From the NCBI RefSeq assembly GCF_000307105.1, contig NC_018645.1, positions 1,128,578 to 1,192,577 on the forward strand: a stretch of DNA of 64,000 nt. The letters run 5' to 3'. This document shows positions 1-12,396 of this stretch, one piece after another. The notes beneath the pieces are model-generated. The model was not told the DNA's origin. It saw only the letters and a program-made list of their open reading frames with translations, and made no database searches. The first letter of the stretch is position 1, and each line of letters starts with the position of its first letter. The translations under genes were made by a program, and so were the position numbers. The DNA comes from Desulfobacula toluolica Tol2 (lineage in GTDB: Bacteria > Desulfobacterota > Desulfobacteria > Desulfobacterales > Desulfobacteraceae).

Positions 1-1154
1 AGAAACCGGGCGTATTTGGTGCCGTCTTTCATCAAAATTTTCACTCTGGCACCAAAACCGATTCGCGGGTCAAGTGAGGTGTGGATCTTTTTGCACAGGG
101 TTACAAGTCGCGGGGAGTTGACTTTTTCATCGGTAAATTTAGCCAGAGTGACATTGCCTTCGGCCAAGGCCAGGGCAGCCAGAAACCATACGCTGAATTT
201 GCCTTCAACACCTATTTTGGGGGCTTTTATGGTTGCGGCTGTTGAGGCCACAGGGCCGATTTCAAGATCAATGCGGTCCACATTTTCAATATCAATATTT
301 TCTTGAGTCCTGATCTCCTCCAGGAGATTCATCGTCGAATGCGTTCAGGCTCATGTGGGGTAAGGTTTTATACTCAACCGGTTAATATGAAATTTTTGCC
401 CCAGCTGATCAAGCATGATTGCTTGGTCAGGTGTCTCGGTCAGCACATCAAGCAGTCCCAGTTCCCCTTCAAGCATATTCTGGGAAGCGGTAAATCCCAT
501 GGAAGCCAGTGATGCAGACATTATGCCTTCCATGGAGACTTTGCCGGCATGAAAAGGTTTGCACATGGTTCCAAAGACTTGCCGCAGTCCGCTGGCCTGG
601 GTGCCGCAGATGCCAAAGGCGGTAACCAGTTGATCGGCATTGAGTCCCATGAGTTTTGCCGCGCCGGCAGTGGCTCCGAAAGTGCCGGCTGTGGCTGTAG
701 TGTGCCAGCCTCGCTGGTAATGATAGTCTCCCAGGGCTAATCCTATGCGGATGCACACATCAACTCCCAGAACCATGGCGGTGATAAACTCCCTGCCGCT
801 GGTGTTGAATTTTTCCGCCAGTGCCAGGATCGCCGGTACGCAGGCGGCAGAGGCATGGATGACGGTTTCATCATGATAGTCGTCAAAATCAAGAGCGTGG
901 CCGATCATACCGTTGGCCAGGGCGGCGTTGGCTATATCTGTTTTAAGTGATGAACCAATGACGCTTGCTTCCGGTTTTCCTCCAACGGCCATAACATAAT
1001 GCATCATGACTTTGGAGCCAGGGTCAGTGGTGCCGGCTAATGCCACTCCCTGCCAGTCAAGAAAACACTCCTTGGCTTTGTTAACTACAGGTTCAGGAAG
1101 GTCTTCAAACCGTGTGGCACATACAAATTGAGCTAATCTTCGGGTAAGTTCCAT
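1..1154 (-). CDS. MmgE/PrpD family protein, 3'-truncated by window edge, two in-frame TGA codons (candidate selenoprotein)
   Basis: MmgE/PrpD proteins include 2-methylcitrate dehydratase and cis-aconitate decarboxylase-type enzymes. The ATG at 1154 follows an AAAGGA ribosome site. The first 267 codons carry the family N-terminus, including GHALDFDDYHDE and the Gly/Ala-rich helical core. At the motif normally read as KPYP-S/C-C-x-x-TH the frame reads K-P-Y-P-T-TGA-Ala-TGA-T-H-S-T (TGA at 351-353 and 345-347). It then stays open in the same frame to base 1 with typical C-terminal sequence (GVEGKFSVWFLAALALAEG, then KFTDEKVNSPR). There is no frame change. The first TGA aligns with a position that is commonly Cys. 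A 6-bp hairpin with a UGGA loop lies 17 nt after the second TGA. Selenocysteine at one or both sites is the favoured reading; a nonsense pseudogene is the alternative. The 3' end lies outside the window. Confidence 0.8.
313..328 (-). promoter_or_regulatory. SECIS-like hairpin downstream of in-frame TGA codons
   Basis: Read on the minus strand this is a perfect 6-bp stem (AUCUCC/GGAGAU) closed by the tetraloop UGGA. The loop lies 23-26 nt after the second TGA and 29-32 nt after the first. Bacterial SECIS elements sit inside the coding region just after UGA. They have a short stem and a small loop with a G among its first two bases, about 16-37 nt from the UGA, and this hairpin fits that description. 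A second short pairing (CCUG with CAGG) could close a lower stem across a large bulge. The function is inferred from position and shape only. Confidence 0.5.
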
Positions 1155-1177: not shown

Positions 1178-2857
1178 CTATGGAGTTTGATGTGGCGGAT
1201 TTTGGTTTCTCAATTTTTTGTTCTTACTTTTAATATACCAGGCATTATGGCCGTAAAGTTTATCAGCACACGTTTGACACAGGCCATGGGTGAACAATAC
1301 ATCGGAATGACTTTCAATATAGTCTTCCAATTCATTCCAATCCCCTTTATCATTGCGGATTTTGTTACAGTTAGAACAAATCGGGAGTAAACCGCTTAAC
1401 ATTTTAACGTTATCAAGAGCTTTTTGGAGTTCTTTGATCAATTTATTGTGTTTTTCCTCTAACCGTTTTCGTTCCTGAATTTCTTTTGTAAGGTCTTTAT
1501 TGGTATCTGACAGTGCTTTGGTTCTTATTTCGATCAGATGTTCTAAATTCTGCTGATAATTTTTTAAATCAAGCAGGTTTTTTTTAAGTTCGAATTCCAT
1601 GAATGCAAATGCATCAGCAAGTTGCTTTATCTCATCATTCCTATCATTTGCTCTGATAGATTTCAGCAATGGATCGTCGTGTAATTTAAAATTACTGTTT
1701 GCCAGATTTTTTGCATATTGCGTCAGATCTGCAAGCGGAGACGCTATTTTTTTGCTGATAAAAACAGCAAAAGCAATTCCAATCATAGAAAACATCAAAA
1801 TGATGGCAGAGTGTCTGGCAGCAATTGCAGAACCTGGTTTTTTTAATGTTTGGTTATCAACAAAAGCTGCAACATACCAGTCCATGGATTTAAAATAATC
1901 TACAAAAGCGCTCTGGGTCATTTGCTTTTGGTTCTTATTGGGATATGGATATTCAACAGGCTGGCTAAAATTACCGGTTGATTTTTTTAAATAATTTTGA
2001 ATTGATGGGTTAAGCGTCATTCCGGACAGCTTTAAATCAATATCTTTTAAATTCGAAGTATGGAGGATAACTTTTCCATGGCTGTTAAAAATGATAATTC
2101 CGCCAACATTGCTCAGACTTACCTGACCCAGTATTTTGTTTAGCTTTGAAAGGATCAGTTTCTCTTTTGCACAAGAAATTTTTTCAATATAACCCATTTC
2201 CAAGGCTGTCCCGATGATCCATTTCCATTGGGGATAATACATGAAAAATCCTATCTGCTTTACAGGTTTCATATCTTCAAGCCGTGGCCACATAAAAACA
2301 GTGAAATTTTTTTTTTCGGTTTTTAAATTTTCCCGGACCAGTTGCAATGCATCTCTTTTCTTGAGATCTTCGAATCCGGACCAGTTTTTCCCCACCATCT
2401 CTTTGCTTGGATGTGATAATCCGGTCAAATTCAAATCATAAACAAAAAAATAGTTGTTCTTCTTATACCGATATTCCTCTATGTTTTTCAGACACAGCTC
2501 TTTAGCTGTCAGTTCGGTTAAAAATCCGGTTTTATGAAGATCATAAAATGAATTGATCATTAACAAAAGGTTTTTGCCTGTGTTTTCCATAAGTGACCGT
2601 TGTGTTTTTATGGAATTGATTTCATACGATAGAAGATCATTGTATTCAGAATCAATGATTCGTATTGTTGACGAAAGTGTTTCTTTGCTCAGTTTATGAT
2701 AATGAGCGGTTAGTTCCCGTTGATAATTTTTTGTCGTAATAAATGTGAACACCATTGAAGTGAAAACCATAAGGCCGATAATAAGGGTGAGAATCTTTGA
2801 TCTTATGGTTCTGAGGCGCGTTTTCTTTTTTAATATTGATAAATTCATTGAGTGCAT
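1178..2857 (-). CDS. Membrane sensor with Cache domain, HAMP, coiled coil and C-terminal Cys4 module
   Basis: This protein of about 559 aa probably senses a ligand outside the membrane. It has a transmembrane segment near residues 20-40 (ILTLIIGLMVFTSMVF) and a large extracytoplasmic double-Cache-type region with WKWIIGTALEMGYIEK. A second membrane segment near 345-365 precedes a HAMP linker and a long coiled coil. There is no kinase, GGDEF or methyl-accepting domain. The C-terminus instead carries LPICSNCNKIRNDKGDW and HGLCQTCADKLYG, a paired CxxC module that recurs in the response regulator at 52384-53052. It lies 18 bp downstream of the solute-binding protein gene on the same strand, so the two probably form one signalling unit. 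The start may be either of two ATGs, 9 nt apart. Confidence 0.75.
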   Translation of the reverse strand: MHSMNLSILKKKTRLRTIRSKILTLIIGLMVFTSMVFTFITTKNYQRELTAHYHKLSKETLSSTIRIIDSEYNDLLSYEINSIKTQRSLMENTGKNLLLMINSFYDLHKTGFLTELTAKELCLKNIEEYRYKKNNYFFVYDLNLTGLSHPSKEMVGKNWSGFEDLKKRDALQLVRENLKTEKKNFTVFMWPRLEDMKPVKQIGFFMYYPQWKWIIGTALEMGYIEKISCAKEKLILSKLNKILGQVSLSNVGGIIIFNSHGKVILHTSNLKDIDLKLSGMTLNPSIQNYLKKSTGNFSQPVEYPYPNKNQKQMTQSAFVDYFKSMDWYVAAFVDNQTLKKPGSAIAARHSAIILMFSMIGIAFAVFISKKIASPLADLTQYAKNLANSNFKLHDDPLLKSIRANDRNDEIKQLADAFAFMEFELKKNLLDLKNYQQNLEHLIEIRTKALSDTNKDLTKEIQERKRLEEKHNKLIKELQKALDNVKMLSGLLPICSNCNKIRNDKGDWNELEDYIESHSDVLFTHGLCQTCADKLYGHNAWYIKSKNKKLRNQNPPHQTP

Positions 2858-2875: not shown

Positions 2876-4045
2876 TTATTCTTTATTTTCTGGGTGGTGA
2901 ATGGTTTCATGTATCTCAAAGGCACCTGCAAGGATGTCAAGGGGTATGCGAAATCCGATCTGTTTTGAGCTTTCAAGATTGACAACGATTTTAAGGGGGC
3001 TTTTAAATTCCTGTGGAAGATCTCCAGGTTTTTTGCCATTCAATATTCCGGCCAAAATTTCAGTATAGAATCGTGCGTCGGCCTTGAAATCAGACCTTCC
3101 AGCACCCATTAAAATTCCATATTTTACCAAATCATAGCGTGTTTGAGCAAAAGTTGCCACTTTGTTTTCGAATAGAGGCATTAAAAGTTTGTTGAGATTT
3201 TTTTTTGTCAATCCAGCATAATCGGTGATATACATTGAATCAATTTTTTGGGCAAGCTGCTCATAACATTTTACTAATTCAGCTTCTTCATGAGATGTTC
3301 CTGAAGCCTGACCGGGCAGATGACATTCAATGATTTGGAACCCAAGTTCCCGTGATAAGTTTTGCACATCCTCTACAGCAGAATAAGATCTGCCATCTAA
3401 ATCATTCTCATAGGCTATGCCCAATTTTTTGAAACCTGTTATCTTATGAAACAAGCGCAGCTGACGTTCGGATTTATTGGGATCTATCCAGGCATGTATG
3501 TGATCAAATCCGGAATTTTCAACACTTTTTATAATGCCGGAACGAATTGCATTGGAAGCCGATAATACCATGGTGGGAGTGTTGTGCTGATTGTTTGCAA
3601 GATCTTGACCGGCCCATGTGCCAAAAGCAAGCATCAGATTGATATCTTTAGATTCATTCAAACGTTTTATGATGTCATGTTTTAAACTTTTACGTTTTGC
3701 ATCACACCATTCAGCAGACCAATAGGCATCAGACACAAATTCAAGATAGTTGCTTTGAATTTGCGTGGAAAGAAACTTCCATAATGTTTTGGTTTCAATT
3801 TCATCCCGACATTCAGGAATGGATGAGTGCTGTATCCAACCCGCATCCATAAGTGTTTTTGTTATTGATTTTAGAATAGACTGGTAATTGGCATAGGGCC
3901 CCCCCTCAAGATAGCCAATGCGCCATTTTTTACCTTTGTTTGTGATGGGGGTAGTCTCAAATGGCATTTGAGCCCAGGCATCAATCAGAAATACGGTTAA
4001 TACAAAGTATAGACCAATGACAGTTAAAGTTATGACCCTATTCAT
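2876..4045 (-). CDS. ABC-type periplasmic substrate-binding protein (COG2984-like)
   Basis: This is a 389-aa exported protein. The ATG at 4045 is preferred over an ATG 21 bases upstream because a GGGAG site sits 5 nt before it and the signal peptide (MNRVITLTVIGLYFVLTVFL) then starts at residue 1. The mature part resembles uncharacterised ABC-type periplasmic components (KWRIGYLEGGPYANYQSILK; a conserved LMLAFGTWAGQDLA segment; MGAGRSDFKADARFYTEILAG near the C-terminus). No permease or ATPase gene is nearby. Its only same-strand partner, 18 bp downstream, is a Cache sensor, which suggests that it delivers a ligand to the sensor rather than to a transporter. Confidence 0.75.
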   Translation of the reverse strand: MNRVITLTVIGLYFVLTVFLIDAWAQMPFETTPITNKGKKWRIGYLEGGPYANYQSILKSITKTLMDAGWIQHSSIPECRDEIETKTLWKFLSTQIQSNYLEFVSDAYWSAEWCDAKRKSLKHDIIKRLNESKDINLMLAFGTWAGQDLANNQHNTPTMVLSASNAIRSGIIKSVENSGFDHIHAWIDPNKSERQLRLFHKITGFKKLGIAYENDLDGRSYSAVEDVQNLSRELGFQIIECHLPGQASGTSHEEAELVKCYEQLAQKIDSMYITDYAGLTKKNLNKLLMPLFENKVATFAQTRYDLVKYGILMGAGRSDFKADARFYTEILAGILNGKKPGDLPQEFKSPLKIVVNLESSKQIGFRIPLDILAGAFEIHETIHHPENKE

Positions 4046-4368
4046 TTTTTCTCCCGGCTTTGGCAATAAGTCCGATAAATTGCTAAATGAATTTGTAATT
4101 CAATTTAATTTATAAGGCACGAAGTCAAAATTAAATCGTCCGAATTATACATGATAGCAGAGTATGTCAACCGCTCATTTTTCAATTTCCGCCCATTTTT
4201 CAATTTCAATGATTAGGCAGATCTTAACTCGCTATGTTTTTTGCATGGCTTTTTTTGTTAAGCCAAACTTTTTTTGATAGCATTTTTTTACGATATTAAC
4301 AACTTTCGAATTGCATTCCAACTTTCGGATTGACTTTCCAGGTCATTGGTCTGAGGCTCAACTTTTTA
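4046..4368. other. Intergenic region with two small tandem duplications
   Basis: No gene is visible. Two near-perfect 18-bp units lie head to tail at 4172-4189 and 4190-4207 (17 of 18 identical). A 13-bp unit, AACTTTCGRATTG, is repeated at 4301 and 4320. The AT-rich stretch next to 4046 probably holds the promoter of the solute-binding protein gene. No convincing terminator for lon was found. Confidence 0.6.
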
Positions 4369-7273: not shown

Positions 7274-10222
7274 ATGCCGACAAAGAAGAAAAAAGTACTT
7301 ATAGCCAAAGAAAAATTTTTGGAAACAGTTGATCAAGAGAAAAAAATCAAAAAAAGCGACCGTTTCTTCATCGTCGGGATCGGTGCTTCAGCCGGTGGTC
7401 TGGAAACCCTCAATGTTTTTTTTTCCATCATGCCGCCCGACAGTGGTATGGCATTTGTGATCATTCAGCATTTGAGTCCGCAGCACAAAAGCATTATGGC
7501 ATCGCTTCTGGAAAAGCAAACTCGTATGGCTGTCAAGCAGATTGAAGATGGCACAAAGGTTTTGCCAAACCATGTTTATCTGAATCCCCCGGGCAAAAAT
7601 GTGGCCATGTTCAATCGCAGCCTTCATTTAATAGAGCCGATGAAAACTGGTGTCATTAATATGCCGGTTGATTTCTTTTTCAGATCCCTGTCGGAAGATC
7701 AGAAGGGAAAAGCCATCGGCATCATCCTGTCAGGGACGGCATCAGATGGAACACTGGGAATTAAAGCGATCAAAAGTGAAGGGGGAATGGCCATGGTCCA
7801 GCAGCCGGACACGGCAAAATACGATGGCATGCCCAGAAGTGCTGTCGAAACCGGGCTTATTGATTTTGTCCTTCCGGTTGAAAAAATGCCGGAAGCGTTA
7901 ACCCGGTATACACAGCATCCATACCTTGGATTACCGGACAAAATCAAAATCACAGACTCTCCGAATAAAAATTATATTCAGAAAATTTTTGCTCTGATCC
8001 GCAGCAAAACCGGCCACGATTTTTCCCACTACAAACCAAACACCATTTCCCGCAGAATTGAGCGCCGTCTTGCCGTTCATCAGATAACAAGGTTGTCTGA
8101 CTATATTCAGTTCATTCAGAAAAATCCCGTTGAAATAGACACTCTTTTTAAAAACCTTGTCATAGGGGTAACCAGTTTTTTCAGAGACCCGGAAGTCTTT
8201 GAAGTCATTGAAAAAGAGGTGATTCCAAATATGTTAAAAGACAAACCACCGGACTCGACAATCCGTTTCTGGGTTACTGGCTGCTCAACCGGTGAAGAGG
8301 CATATTCACTGGCCATAATTGTTTCTGAAATAATGGATAACATCAAAAAATATTTCAATGTCAGAATTTTTGCCACGGATATTGATCCTTCTGCCATAGA
8401 CATTGCCCGTCGGGGAATTTACCCGGAGAATATCTGTGCGGATATTTCCCCTGAACGTTTATATCAATTTTTCACAAAAACCCATGATGGTTTTCATGTT
8501 AAAAAGCAGATCCGGGACATGATTGTTTTTTCAATTCAAAACGTCATTAAGGACCCGCCATTTTCACGATTGGATCTGGTGAGCTGCCGGAATCTTTTGA
8601 TTTATATGGACAGCACTCTCCAGAAAAAAAATATTCCTCTGTTTCATTACACCTTGAATCCGGGAGGCATATTGTTACTGGGAACATCAGAGAGTATTGG
8701 GGAACATACGGATCTTTTTGAGCCGTTCAACAGTAAATTGAAAATTTTTATACGGAGTAAATCCTTTGTGGGCAAAGGGATAGATTTTTCCGGTAAAATC
8801 TACCATGATGCACAGCCGGGAATCAAAGCGGATGAAGATGTACATCTGTCTGCGAAAACGGATATTCAAGCCGTTATTGAAAGAACGATTCTTGATGTCT
8901 ATGCTCCTGCCGGGGTTTTGATAAACGACAAATATGAAATTCTTTATTTCGCAGGAATAACAGCCAAATACTTATCACCGCCCACTGGAAAACCAAGCTT
9001 TAATGTACTGGATATGGCCTGCGGAGATTTAAAAAACAAACTGACAATAGCCCTTCACAAAGCAGCTCAAAAGAAAACGGCCACGGTCTGTAAGGATGTG
9101 AAAATTAGCCGGAATGGTACTTTTTGTAGTATCGACATATTGATTCGACCGATAACAGACCAGGGGCTGCCAAAAGGATCTATGCTGATCATGTTTGACG
9201 ATAAAATTCCTGCAGATGCGTCAGGTGAAAAAACAATGGGAGCTGTCAAGACCCGAAAAAAAAGTATGGCCCTGCAAAGTCTTGAGCAGGAGCTTCAATC
9301 AACCCGGGAATATCTTCAGGCAACAATTGAGGAGCTGGAAACTTCCAATGAAGAGCTTAAGTCAGCCAATGAAGAACTGCAATCTTTTAATGAGGAGATA
9401 CAAAGCTCCAATGAAGAGCTGGAAACCTCCAAGGAAGAGCTTCAATCTACAAACGAGGAACTGGCAACAGTCAATGCGGAGCTTCAAACTAAAGTAGAAG
9501 AGTACTCCAAGACCAGAAATGATATGAACAACCTTCTGGCTGCTACTGAAATTGCCACACTTTTCATTGATACGAACCTGTGTATCAAAAACTACACCCC
9601 TGCTGCCGACAACTTAATAAATCTGATCCGGACCGATATCGGCAGGCCGCTCGATGACCTCAAAACTTGTTTTGGGGATGTCAATCTTGTAGGTTTGGCC
9701 AGAAATGTCCTCAAAGATCTCAATACCATTGAAATAGAAATCTTGTCTTTGGATGATATCTGGTATACCTTGAAGATGATTCCCTATCGGACGGTTGAGA
9801 ATCTCATTGATGGCGTGGTGATGACCTTTATCAATGTAAACAAAATAAAACAGGCGGACAAATTCAGGCGGCTGGCAACAGTTTTGGAGGATTCTAATGA
9901 TGCCATTACCGTTCTGGGCCTAAACGGTGATATACGGGCCTGGAACAAGGGTGCGCAGGCAATGTACGGCTGGACTGAATCTGAGGCGCTTAAAATGAAT
10001 ATCAGCGAATTTCTGCCCAAGGACAAACAAGGCGAACTGAATTCGATCATTGAAAAATTAAAAAGACATGAACCCATCCCCCCATTCAAAAGCAGGAGGA
10101 AGACAAGTACCGGGAAAAATCTGGAGGTATGGTTGACTATCACGGCTTTAATGGATGAAACAGGTCAGCCCATTGAGATTGCAACAACAGAAAGGAATCT
10201 TGCTTGGTTGATCGAAAAATAA
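7274..10222 (+). CDS. CheB-CheR fusion chemotaxis-type protein with coiled coil and PAS domains
   Basis: The 982-aa protein joins a methylesterase and a methyltransferase. The N-terminal CheB-type domain (about 20-205) has GIGASAGGLE with the catalytic Ser, QHLSPQHKS with the His, and SGTASDGTLG with the Asp. The CheR domain (about 220-480) has the SAM-binding WVTGCSTGEEAYSLA and ATDIDPSAI. A long heptad-like coiled coil built on repeated NEELxS units (about 690-750) and two PAS domains follow. No receiver or kinase domain is present. The ATG at 7274 has GAGG 8 nt upstream and is preferred to an earlier in-frame start. The histidine kinase gene begins 11 nt downstream, so the two are co-transcribed. 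Such fusions are known in signalling outside classical chemotaxis. Confidence 0.88.
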   Translation: MPTKKKKVLIAKEKFLETVDQEKKIKKSDRFFIVGIGASAGGLETLNVFFSIMPPDSGMAFVIIQHLSPQHKSIMASLLEKQTRMAVKQIEDGTKVLPNHVYLNPPGKNVAMFNRSLHLIEPMKTGVINMPVDFFFRSLSEDQKGKAIGIILSGTASDGTLGIKAIKSEGGMAMVQQPDTAKYDGMPRSAVETGLIDFVLPVEKMPEALTRYTQHPYLGLPDKIKITDSPNKNYIQKIFALIRSKTGHDFSHYKPNTISRRIERRLAVHQITRLSDYIQFIQKNPVEIDTLFKNLVIGVTSFFRDPEVFEVIEKEVIPNMLKDKPPDSTIRFWVTGCSTGEEAYSLAIIVSEIMDNIKKYFNVRIFATDIDPSAIDIARRGIYPENICADISPERLYQFFTKTHDGFHVKKQIRDMIVFSIQNVIKDPPFSRLDLVSCRNLLIYMDSTLQKKNIPLFHYTLNPGGILLLGTSESIGEHTDLFEPFNSKLKIFIRSKSFVGKGIDFSGKIYHDAQPGIKADEDVHLSAKTDIQAVIERTILDVYAPAGVLINDKYEILYFAGITAKYLSPPTGKPSFNVLDMACGDLKNKLTIALHKAAQKKTATVCKDVKISRNGTFCSIDILIRPITDQGLPKGSMLIMFDDKIPADASGEKTMGAVKTRKKSMALQSLEQELQSTREYLQATIEELETSNEELKSANEELQSFNEEIQSSNEELETSKEELQSTNEELATVNAELQTKVEEYSKTRNDMNNLLAATEIATLFIDTNLCIKNYTPAADNLINLIRTDIGRPLDDLKTCFGDVNLVGLARNVLKDLNTIEIEILSLDDIWYTLKMIPYRTVENLIDGVVMTFINVNKIKQADKFRRLATVLEDSNDAITVLGLNGDIRAWNKGAQAMYGWTESEALKMNISEFLPKDKQGELNSIIEKLKRHEPIPPFKSRRKTSTGKNLEVWLTITALMDETGQPIEIATTERNLAWLIEK

Positions 10223-10233
10223 GTGAGAACAAG

Positions 10234-12396
10234 ATGGGCAATAAGAAAGAAATTCCGGATAATTCTGAACTCAGGCAAAGAGCCGAAAAGGCATTGAAAG
10301 TATCATCTGTTAACAATGACTGCCCTGTTGAATTTTCTCCTGATGAAATGAAGACTCTGATTCATGATCTTGAGGTTCATCAAATCGAACTGGAAATGCA
10401 GAACGATGAACTGAGAAGATTCCAGGCGGAATTGTACACTGAACGAGCTCGCTATTTTGACTTGTACAATATGGCCCCGGTAGGCTTTTTTAGCATCAAC
10501 GAGCAGAAGCTGATCTTTGAATGCAATCTCACCGCTGCCAAAATGCTGGGAACAACCCGGAGTACTATTGTCAAACAGCCTGTCACCCGGTTTATCCTGA
10601 AAGAAGATCAAGACATATACTATCTGCATAACAAACAGCTTTTTGAAACCGATGTTCCGCAGGAGTGTGATCTCAGGATGCTGAAAAATAACGGCTCGGC
10701 AATTTGGGTGCGCTTGGCAACAACCGTTGTGCAGAATTCCGAAGGCATCACATCAAGGCGAATGGTGATGAGCGACATCACCGAGCGCAAAAAGGTTGAA
10801 AATATCCTGAAGGAAAGGGAAACTTTTCTTAAAACGCTGATCAATGCGATACCCATACCGGTTTTCTATAAAGACAAAAAGGGTCGATATCTTGAATTCA
10901 ACGAAGCGTTTGAAGTTTTTTTTGGGAAAAAGAGGGAAGATCTGATAGGCAAGTCCGTATTTGATATCAGCCCAAGGCATTTGGCGGAAAAATATACTGC
11001 ACAAGACAATGAGCTGTTTGCGATCGGTGGTAAACAGCAATACGAATCTCAGGTCAAAAATACAAATGGCAAACTGCGGGATGTGATCTTCAGCACATCT
11101 GTTGTTCCGGGCAACAAGGGCTCTTTTATCGGCCTGATCGGAGCAATATTGGATATCACGGACCGAAAGAGAGATGAAGAAGATATCAGTAATTTACGCA
11201 ATTATCTTTCCAATATTATCGACTCCATGCCCTCGGTGATAATCGGAGTGGACAAAGATGGTCGAGTGAACCAATGGAACCATAAAGCACAAATAATAAC
11301 AGGGATATCAAAAGAATCAGCAAAAGGACAATTATTTGAAAAAGCCTTCCCGCTTCTTTCAAGTGAGTCAGAGCGTTTAAAACAAGCCATTAGCATGAGG
11401 AAAATATGCTCAAATCCACGGCAGTTCAGAAAAGAGGAAGATCAGGTAATATTTGAAAATATCACCATCTATCCTTTGACGGCTAACGGGCGGGCAGGTG
11501 CGGTTGTCAGGGTTGATGATGTTACGGAACAAGTTAAATTGGAAGAAATGATGGTTCAGTCAGAGAAGATGCTTTCTCTTGGCGGCTTTTCAGCCGCTAT
11601 GGCCCATGAGATCAATAATCCTTTGGCCGGTGTTATCCAAAATACAAATGTATTGTCAAATCGATTAACCATGAAGGATATGCCTGCCAATATAAAAGCG
11701 GCGGAATCATCCGGAACAACAATGGAAGCTATTCATGAATTCATGCATGCCCGTAAAGTTCCCCGAATGCTTGAGGCGATAACAGAATCGGGTTTAAGAA
11801 TTGCTGATATAGTGAGAAATATCCTGAGTTTTTCACGAAAAAGCGACTCTTTTTTTTCAACTCATAACCCAAAAGTTCTTATGGAAAAAATTTTGGCATT
11901 GGCTTCATCAGGCTATGATTTAAAGAAAAAATTTGACTTTAAATCCATTGTTATTGAAAAAAAGTATGAAAAGGATCTGCCAGTGATTGTCTGTAGAGGA
12001 AGTGAAATTCAGCAGGTTTTATTGAATGTTTTTAATAATGGTGCATATGCCATGTTTGAAAAACAATTTTCAGAAAAGGATTATCAACCAAAATTTTGTC
12101 TCAAGCTTTCAGAAGAAAGAGAATTCAATATGCTACGGATTGAAGTTAAAGATAATGGGCCTGGGATTGATAAAGAGACTTGTAAAAGGATTTTTGAACC
12201 TTTTTTTACAACAAAACCGATTGGTTCTGGTACGGGTCTTGGCTTGTCTGTCTCTTATTTTATCATAACCAAGAATCACAATGGAACAATGGAAGTTGAA
12301 TCTGAATTAGGAAAAGGCACTAATTTTATAATTCGTCTGCCGATGGGCGCTTGCAGCATCAAAGACAAACATCTGTTCGGCCTCGGAGAATTTTAA
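10234..12396 (+). CDS. PAS-domain sensor histidine kinase
   Basis: This is a soluble histidine kinase of about 720 aa. An N-terminal helical segment (FSPDEMKTLIHDLEVHQIEL) precedes three PAS domains. The HisKA box AAMAHEINNPLAG holds the phospho-His and is followed by a roughly 50-residue insertion before GLRIADIVRNILSFSRKS. The HATPase_c domain has N, G1 and G2 boxes (NVFNNGAYAMF, DNGPGIDKE, GSGTGLGLSV). No membrane segment is seen. The ATG at 10234 is preferred to an upstream TTG inside the previous gene. It is co-transcribed with the CheB-CheR fusion, which probably supplies its input. No cognate receiver gene is adjacent. Confidence 0.88.
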   Translation: MGNKKEIPDNSELRQRAEKALKVSSVNNDCPVEFSPDEMKTLIHDLEVHQIELEMQNDELRRFQAELYTERARYFDLYNMAPVGFFSINEQKLIFECNLTAAKMLGTTRSTIVKQPVTRFILKEDQDIYYLHNKQLFETDVPQECDLRMLKNNGSAIWVRLATTVVQNSEGITSRRMVMSDITERKKVENILKERETFLKTLINAIPIPVFYKDKKGRYLEFNEAFEVFFGKKREDLIGKSVFDISPRHLAEKYTAQDNELFAIGGKQQYESQVKNTNGKLRDVIFSTSVVPGNKGSFIGLIGAILDITDRKRDEEDISNLRNYLSNIIDSMPSVIIGVDKDGRVNQWNHKAQIITGISKESAKGQLFEKAFPLLSSESERLKQAISMRKICSNPRQFRKEEDQVIFENITIYPLTANGRAGAVVRVDDVTEQVKLEEMMVQSEKMLSLGGFSAAMAHEINNPLAGVIQNTNVLSNRLTMKDMPANIKAAESSGTTMEAIHEFMHARKVPRMLEAITESGLRIADIVRNILSFSRKSDSFFSTHNPKVLMEKILALASSGYDLKKKFDFKSIVIEKKYEKDLPVIVCRGSEIQQVLLNVFNNGAYAMFEKQFSEKDYQPKFCLKLSEEREFNMLRIEVKDNGPGIDKETCKRIFEPFFTTKPIGSGTGLGLSVSYFIITKNHNGTMEVESELGKGTNFIIRLPMGACSIKDKHLFGLGEF

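Follow-up and report, generated by a model that had tools for sequence, protein, structure and literature searches.

Selenocysteine is known mostly from redox enzymes, and selenolates are stabilised at the starts of helices. Bacterial proteins that carry more than one selenocysteine (Sec) have been described, including peroxiredoxin-like or metal-binding proteins with a UxxU motif, rhodanese- or DsbD-like proteins with a UxxxxU motif, and double selenoproteins such as MbdU (PMC13188914). All of these have folds other than that of MmgE/PrpD. An inventory from 2026 lists 119 prokaryotic selenoprotein families and subfamilies (PMC13188914); no MmgE/PrpD entry was found in its table or among its main-text terms, and the table holds UxxU, CxU and UxC motifs and no UxU that we could find. 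A term search of a 2022 review for MmgE, PrpD or dehydratase found none of these (PMC9312934). Within the open-licence literature no Sec-containing MmgE/PrpD was found, and the UXU motif with selenocysteine was met there only in an account of animal SELENOP (PMC11818150).

The closest described relatives by fold of the protein reported here are IRG1 of Bacillus subtilis (PDB 7bra and 7e9d) and iminodisuccinate (IDS) epimerase (2hp0 and 2hp3), which have the same fold and about 30% identity to it. Both are without Sec. According to the docking account for IRG1, residues D91, H102, K200, K266 and C271 hold two of the substrate carboxylates, H151 holds the third, and Y146 takes part (PMC7347537). 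A further relative, 2-methylcitrate dehydratase (PrpD/MmgE), belongs to the same superfamily and has the same fold. Here we describe an MmgE/PrpD gene which very probably encodes an intact selenoenzyme, both of its UGA codons being read as Sec by the normal bacterial route with the help of one downstream hairpin.

The window, that is the whole stretch of 64,000 nucleotides from Desulfobacula toluolica Tol2 that was analysed, covers positions 1128578–1192577 of a one-contig genome of 5.2 Mb. The in-window part of the gene occupies positions 1–1154 of the minus strand, with its ATG at 1154–1152. Read to its end outside the window, the frame is 446 codons long, is free of TAA and TAG and contains two internal TGAs, and it finishes at a terminal TGA, codon 447, which lies past the window edge at G000:C1:1128391-1128393 (L002:4394-4392). 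A preliminary description, made from the window alone, had reported two TGAs one codon apart in a frame that stays open, with MmgE/PrpD C-terminal sequence, to the window edge. Both observations were confirmed: the TGAs are at 353–351 (codon 268) and 347–345 (codon 270) of the minus strand, the MmgE/PrpD sequence continues to the terminator, and the missing 3' part contains no extra stop or frameshift. Around the pair the frame reads K-P-Y-P-T-TGA-Ala-TGA-T-H-S-T-M-N-L-L-E-E-I, with a single Ala codon between the TGAs. A genome-wide code in which TGA means Trp is not supported, since the gene itself terminates with TGA. A scan for frames of at least 60 codons on both sides of a TGA found 15 others in the window, the longest of which (minus strand, 10755) is antisense to a 730-aa ORF at 10204–12396 and is probably due to chance.

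The readthrough protein matches both Pfam domains of the family (MmgE_PrpD_N, 262.6 bits; MmgE_PrpD_C, 110.1 bits; cut-off 32.1 for each), and it is the single PF03972 match found in the genome. It does not score as a PrpD equivalog: an NCBIfam search returned PrpD models only, all far below cut-off (53.9, 32 and 22 bits against 950, 575 and 458). A structure model based on 23 aligned sequences has a mean pLDDT of 93.3, and the folds that it matches best are those of B. subtilis IRG1 and IDS epimerase (TM 0.89–0.91); complete chains of 2-methylcitrate dehydratase give TMq 0.78–0.84. With IRG1 chain positions set to the published numbering by H102, the active-site residues of IRG1 and IDS epimerase, including the Lys and Cys columns, are common to the Sec protein. 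In its own numbering the catalytic residues D91, H100, Y146, H151, K199 and K263 are kept, K263 aligning with Lys266 of IRG1. Fold and catalytic residues both place the protein in the MmgE/PrpD superfamily. The first TGA falls at the position of IRG1 Cys271 and the second at that of Ala273. In the model, helix 269–285 starts just after residue 268, so both Sec residues would sit at a helix start.

How widespread are these TGAs? Overlapping sets of genomes were searched, comprising 97 relatives, 86 genomes of the family, 389 of the order, 395 of the phylum and 85 of the order of G467, and one further scan of genome contigs gave 15 loci. At the cut-off of each search, carriers were found in 7 of 389 genomes of the order, 2 of 395 of the phylum and 3 of 85 of the order of G467. 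TGA is present at column 270 in 11 distinct loci, five of which also have it at column 268. The double arrangement, U-A-U, is found in five distinct genomes (the window, L086, L063/L089, L064/L087 and L065/L088; L131 was left out as a duplicate of L086, 1300 of 1300 bases being identical). In the six loci with the second TGA only, the first column is Cys in three (C-A-U; L110, L132 and L090), Pro in two (P-L-U; L024/L091 and L066) and Ala in one (A-G-U; L102). Every one of the 16 stops in the two columns is a TGA, with no TAA or TAG. The C-A-U copy at L090:3959-5158, from a MAG, looks decayed: some 57 residues are missing at its N-terminus, His151 is replaced by Arg, and the frame contains a TAA. 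Stops also occur in two rows outside those examined, G207:C261 (one TAG) and the 75-residue fragment G006:C78:20861 (one TGA and one TAA). G181:C41 was taken to be the other end of the gene on G181:C274, as both pieces reach contig ends.

Homologues were compared in 91 non-redundant rows (matches above 150 bits that start no later than model position 70 and extend at least to 330, identical or contained sequences having been removed; L132 was found after the tree was made and is outside these rows). Column 268 is Cys in 74 rows, Ala in 8, Sec in 5, Pro in 2 and Gly in 2, which bears out the earlier remark that the first TGA falls where relatives usually have Cys. Column 270 is Sec in 10 rows, to which L132 adds a further TGA, and Cys in none. 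The Cys/Sec exchange therefore holds for column 268 only. Homologues with aligned TGA or Cys, whose absence the preliminary description had named as a refutation, do exist: four other genomes have TGA at both columns and Cys is usual at 268. Cys at 270 was seen in 0 of 91 rows. The acid/base residues matching those of the window protein are kept in nine of the ten Sec270 rows, the exception being L090 with its Arg at 151.

The other four U-A-U proteins are 67–71% identical to the window protein on both sides of the TGAs. In all 11 pairs compared, ten among the five U-A-U genes and one between the two P-L-U genes, pN is 0.09–0.27 against a pS of 0.62–1.02 before and after the TGAs, with pS near saturation. 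By this measure, sequence downstream of the TGAs is translated and under selection. In-frame TGA kept among homologues, within coding sequence under selection on both sides, is one mark of a selenoprotein gene, and it is what was found here.

A maximum likelihood tree of the 91 rows places nine of the ten Sec270 rows in one clade (99/94); its sister group is a pair of rows that read C-G-G and C-G-F (100/98 for both together). Within the Sec270 clade, P-L-U is sister to the other seven rows. These comprise a nested U-A-U clade (100/99) and, next to it, two C-A-U rows that the tree leaves in no fixed order. L102 lies elsewhere in the tree, and at least two changes are required by well-supported branches. 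This locus (L102:4592-5911) is a separately derived MmgE/PrpD with one in-frame TGA at column 270, in the context K-Y-H-A-S-A-G-U-N-H. By these comparisons, Sec at column 270 would have arisen at least twice, the second time in another MmgE/PrpD branch with a hairpin of its own. Of the two TGAs, the second is found more widely, and by the tree it is the older Sec position. An ancestor with Cys268 may have gained Sec270 together with the hairpin, giving C-A-U; one line would then have lost Cys268, and in another Cys268 would have been exchanged for Sec, giving U-A-U under a hairpin already present. Such a stepwise path from C-A-U to U-A-U seems the simplest.

Downstream of the second TGA, at 312–329 of the minus strand, is a SECIS-like hairpin. 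It has a stem of seven positions, six of which are paired in the window and the basal A and C of which are unpaired, with the loop UGGA at 322–319. The perfect 6-bp hairpin reported earlier, AUCUCC-UGGA-GGAGAU, was recovered at 328–313, its loop being nucleotides 23–26 after the second TGA. The loop follows the second TGA at 22 nt and the first at 28 nt. The bacterial SECIS (bSECIS) model, as given in the 2026 inventory, has a loop of 3–9 nt, a stem of 4–16 bp, a G in the first two loop positions, a distance of 16–37 nt from the UGA and an energy of -7.5 kcal/mol or lower (PMC13188914). The UGGA loop, the six pairs and both distances lie within this geometry, so that one common hairpin is at an allowed distance from both TGAs. 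In energy, the bare stem of the window reaches -6.2 kcal/mol and its 40-nt fold -8.2, against the published -7.5. The five U-A-U loci range from -6.2 to -7.1 for the bare stem, short of -7.5, and from -8.2 to -10.4 for 40-nt folds, a measure by which several non-Sec relatives likewise reach -7.5. On bare-stem energy, -7.5 is reached by six of the 11 Sec loci, the five U-A-U loci not being among them. A loose bSECIS match at or below -7.5 kcal/mol was found in 1 of 81 non-Sec homologues at the same place and at 99 of 2730 codons picked at random from these genes. Because random codons can pass the loose model and the bare stem of the window does not reach -7.5, a bSECIS-like hairpin alone is weak evidence; it is conservation that counts. 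An Rfam search with 301 bases around the motif gave two low-scoring matches to animal RNA families, both below their gathering scores.

A hairpin of 6–7 pairs with a UGGA or UGGU loop, 22 nt from the TGA of column 270, is present in 10 of the 11 Sec270 loci, and L102 has a different bSECIS-like one, with 8 pairs and a GGCU loop 17 nt after the TGA (-12.0 kcal/mol). Among the five U-A-U genes only, the hairpin codons (residues 273–280) rank first of 354 eight-codon windows for synonymous conservation, the same codon being used in 59 of 66 same-residue comparisons against 23.1 expected. The pairing and covariation analysis covered the nine loci that align without gaps (L102 and L132 being outside), and there 96.8% of stem cells are paired, against 22–62% in slid controls. 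At the base the pair is G-C in four loci and A-U in three, and two loci, including the window, leave it open; at the top it is C-G in seven and A-U in two. Two stem pairs have changes on both sides. A shuffle control gave a mixed outcome. The observed figures for paired cells, for cells with both sides changed and for the covariation score were reached by 6 of 500 shuffles. Two other measures are unexceptional: 213 of 500 shuffles have at least as many pairs with both sides changed, and 452 of 500 at least as many further pair types. As the sequences are related, the covariation in the hairpin amounts to few events.

The preliminary description had proposed a search for selA, selB, selC and selD, and all four are present in the window genome (selC, 76.5 bits; selB, 358.7; selD, 360, with an internal TGA of its own; selA, 605.6). 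Each was also found in 10 of 10 carrier genomes tested (G000, G006, G133, G155, G157, G181, G372, G467, G777 with L086 and G778 with L090; G799, with L132, was outside this test), the selB match in G157 covering 324 of 581 positions. Ten genomes with non-Sec relatives had selB in nine, selC in nine and selD in ten. The machinery is therefore needed but not diagnostic, since genomes with non-Sec relatives mostly carry sel genes too. Two tRNA-Sec matches above the Rfam cut-off were seen in each of G053, G116, G133, G155 and G705, and two selB matches in G053, G116, G133 and G705.

Is the gene instead a decaying MmgE/PrpD with two nonsense mutations, perhaps linked to a nearby IS66 element? Or is it a split gene, with termination at the first TGA, a fresh start just downstream, and the N- and C-terminal domains made as separate polypeptides? 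Decay might be suspected from the mobile sequences just beyond the 3' end and from the decayed look of the relative L090. Past that end and outside the window, a CRISPR-like array (L002:3819-4170; five copies of a 34-nt repeat at 65–66 nt spacing and a partial sixth) lies between the gene and the IS66 element; it was shown by a repeat search, and a tandem-repeat search found none. The IS66 transposase and TnpB-like genes are at L002:1502-3426, about 1 kb from the gene end. Against decay, the gene has no other stop or frameshift, and the same two TGAs recur in four further genomes with purifying selection on both sides, which agrees with the earlier argument that two nonsense mutations would be an unlikely way to decay. 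We regard a pseudogene as the most improbable reading of all. Almost as improbable is a split gene, for which one could cite that the U-A-U genes have an in-frame ATG at codon 275 and that in L024, L110 and L132 a GTG stands directly after the TGA. However, the six codons that follow the TGA in L066, L090 and L102 include no ATG, GTG or TTG, and the break would fall inside the active-site motif K263–H272. Nor would a split account for the use of TGA at 16 of 16 stops, for the hairpin, or for two stops one codon apart, which would be purposeless.

The selenoprotein reading, which the preliminary description had put forward with the possibility of two Sec residues, is supported by the TGA pair in four further genomes at about 70% protein identity, the kept hairpin and the sel genes. 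None of the three refuting outcomes named in that description (a genome lacking sel genes, homologues lacking aligned TGA or Cys, further damage in the 3' part) was observed. Its basis is comparative, and consists of the kept TGAs, the Cys/Sec exchange at 268, a hairpin with changes on both sides, purifying selection and the machinery. Under this reading tRNA-Sec, SelA, SelD and SelB would decode both UGAs, with Sec inserted at each and one hairpin serving the two. Sec268 would stand in place of the active-site Cys of the family, and Sec270, two residues further along in the first turn of helix 269–285, would supply another selenolate. The predicted reaction is acid/base in kind, a dehydration, an epimerisation or a decarboxylation of a small di- or tricarboxylate, which the selenolates may bind or activate.

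Two readings of the chemistry keep the gene as a double selenoprotein. In the one we tentatively prefer, a U-A-U pair served by one SECIS, built stepwise and with Sec270 having arisen twice, would take part in non-redox chemistry at the helix start, through acid/base or covalent catalysis; this is possible rather than probable. Alternatively, and in our view unlikely though to be taken seriously, the two Sec residues may form a redox switch (a diselenide) or a metal site instead of serving acid/base catalysis. Most uncharacterised selenoproteins probably serve redox functions, according to the 2026 inventory (PMC13188914), cadmium binding has been ascribed to the UXU motif of animal SELENOP (PMC11818150), and in the model both residues are at the start of a helix. 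On the other hand, the acid/base residues persist in nine of ten Sec270 rows, and a pair is not always needed, since the two P-L-U loci and the A-G-U locus carry one Sec only, with a residue other than Cys at 268. A diselenide or two-ligand metal site would therefore not be general, and may hold in U-A-U.

The genes around the carriers are compatible with a role in organic-acid metabolism, and do not fix the substrate. TRAP transporter genes are near carriers L086, L105 and L108, fumarase and fumarate-reductase-like genes near L086 and L108, and a second MmgE/PrpD gene near L087 and L088. A carboxymuconolactone-decarboxylase-family gene (L107:7232-7618) ends one base before a Sec-MmgE/PrpD gene. 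In the window, a gene for a dCache sensor-like protein (1178–2857, minus strand) lies upstream, 23 nt before the ATG, and is preceded on the same strand by a gene for an ABC-type substrate-binding protein (2876–4066).

Comparison strongly supports a selenoprotein gene with two Sec codons in MmgE/PrpD, a family absent from the 2026 selenoprotein inventory as far as its table and main-text terms show. Gene callers that stop at TGA would split such genes in two. The locus would also be a direct test case for the use of one bacterial SECIS by two UGAs a codon apart. The active site of a lyase/isomerase superfamily whose fold is known would contain selenocysteine, apparently at two positions, and the natural series at the two positions (C-A-U, U-A-U, P-L-U, A-G-U and the non-Sec forms) would make the value of each selenium measurable.
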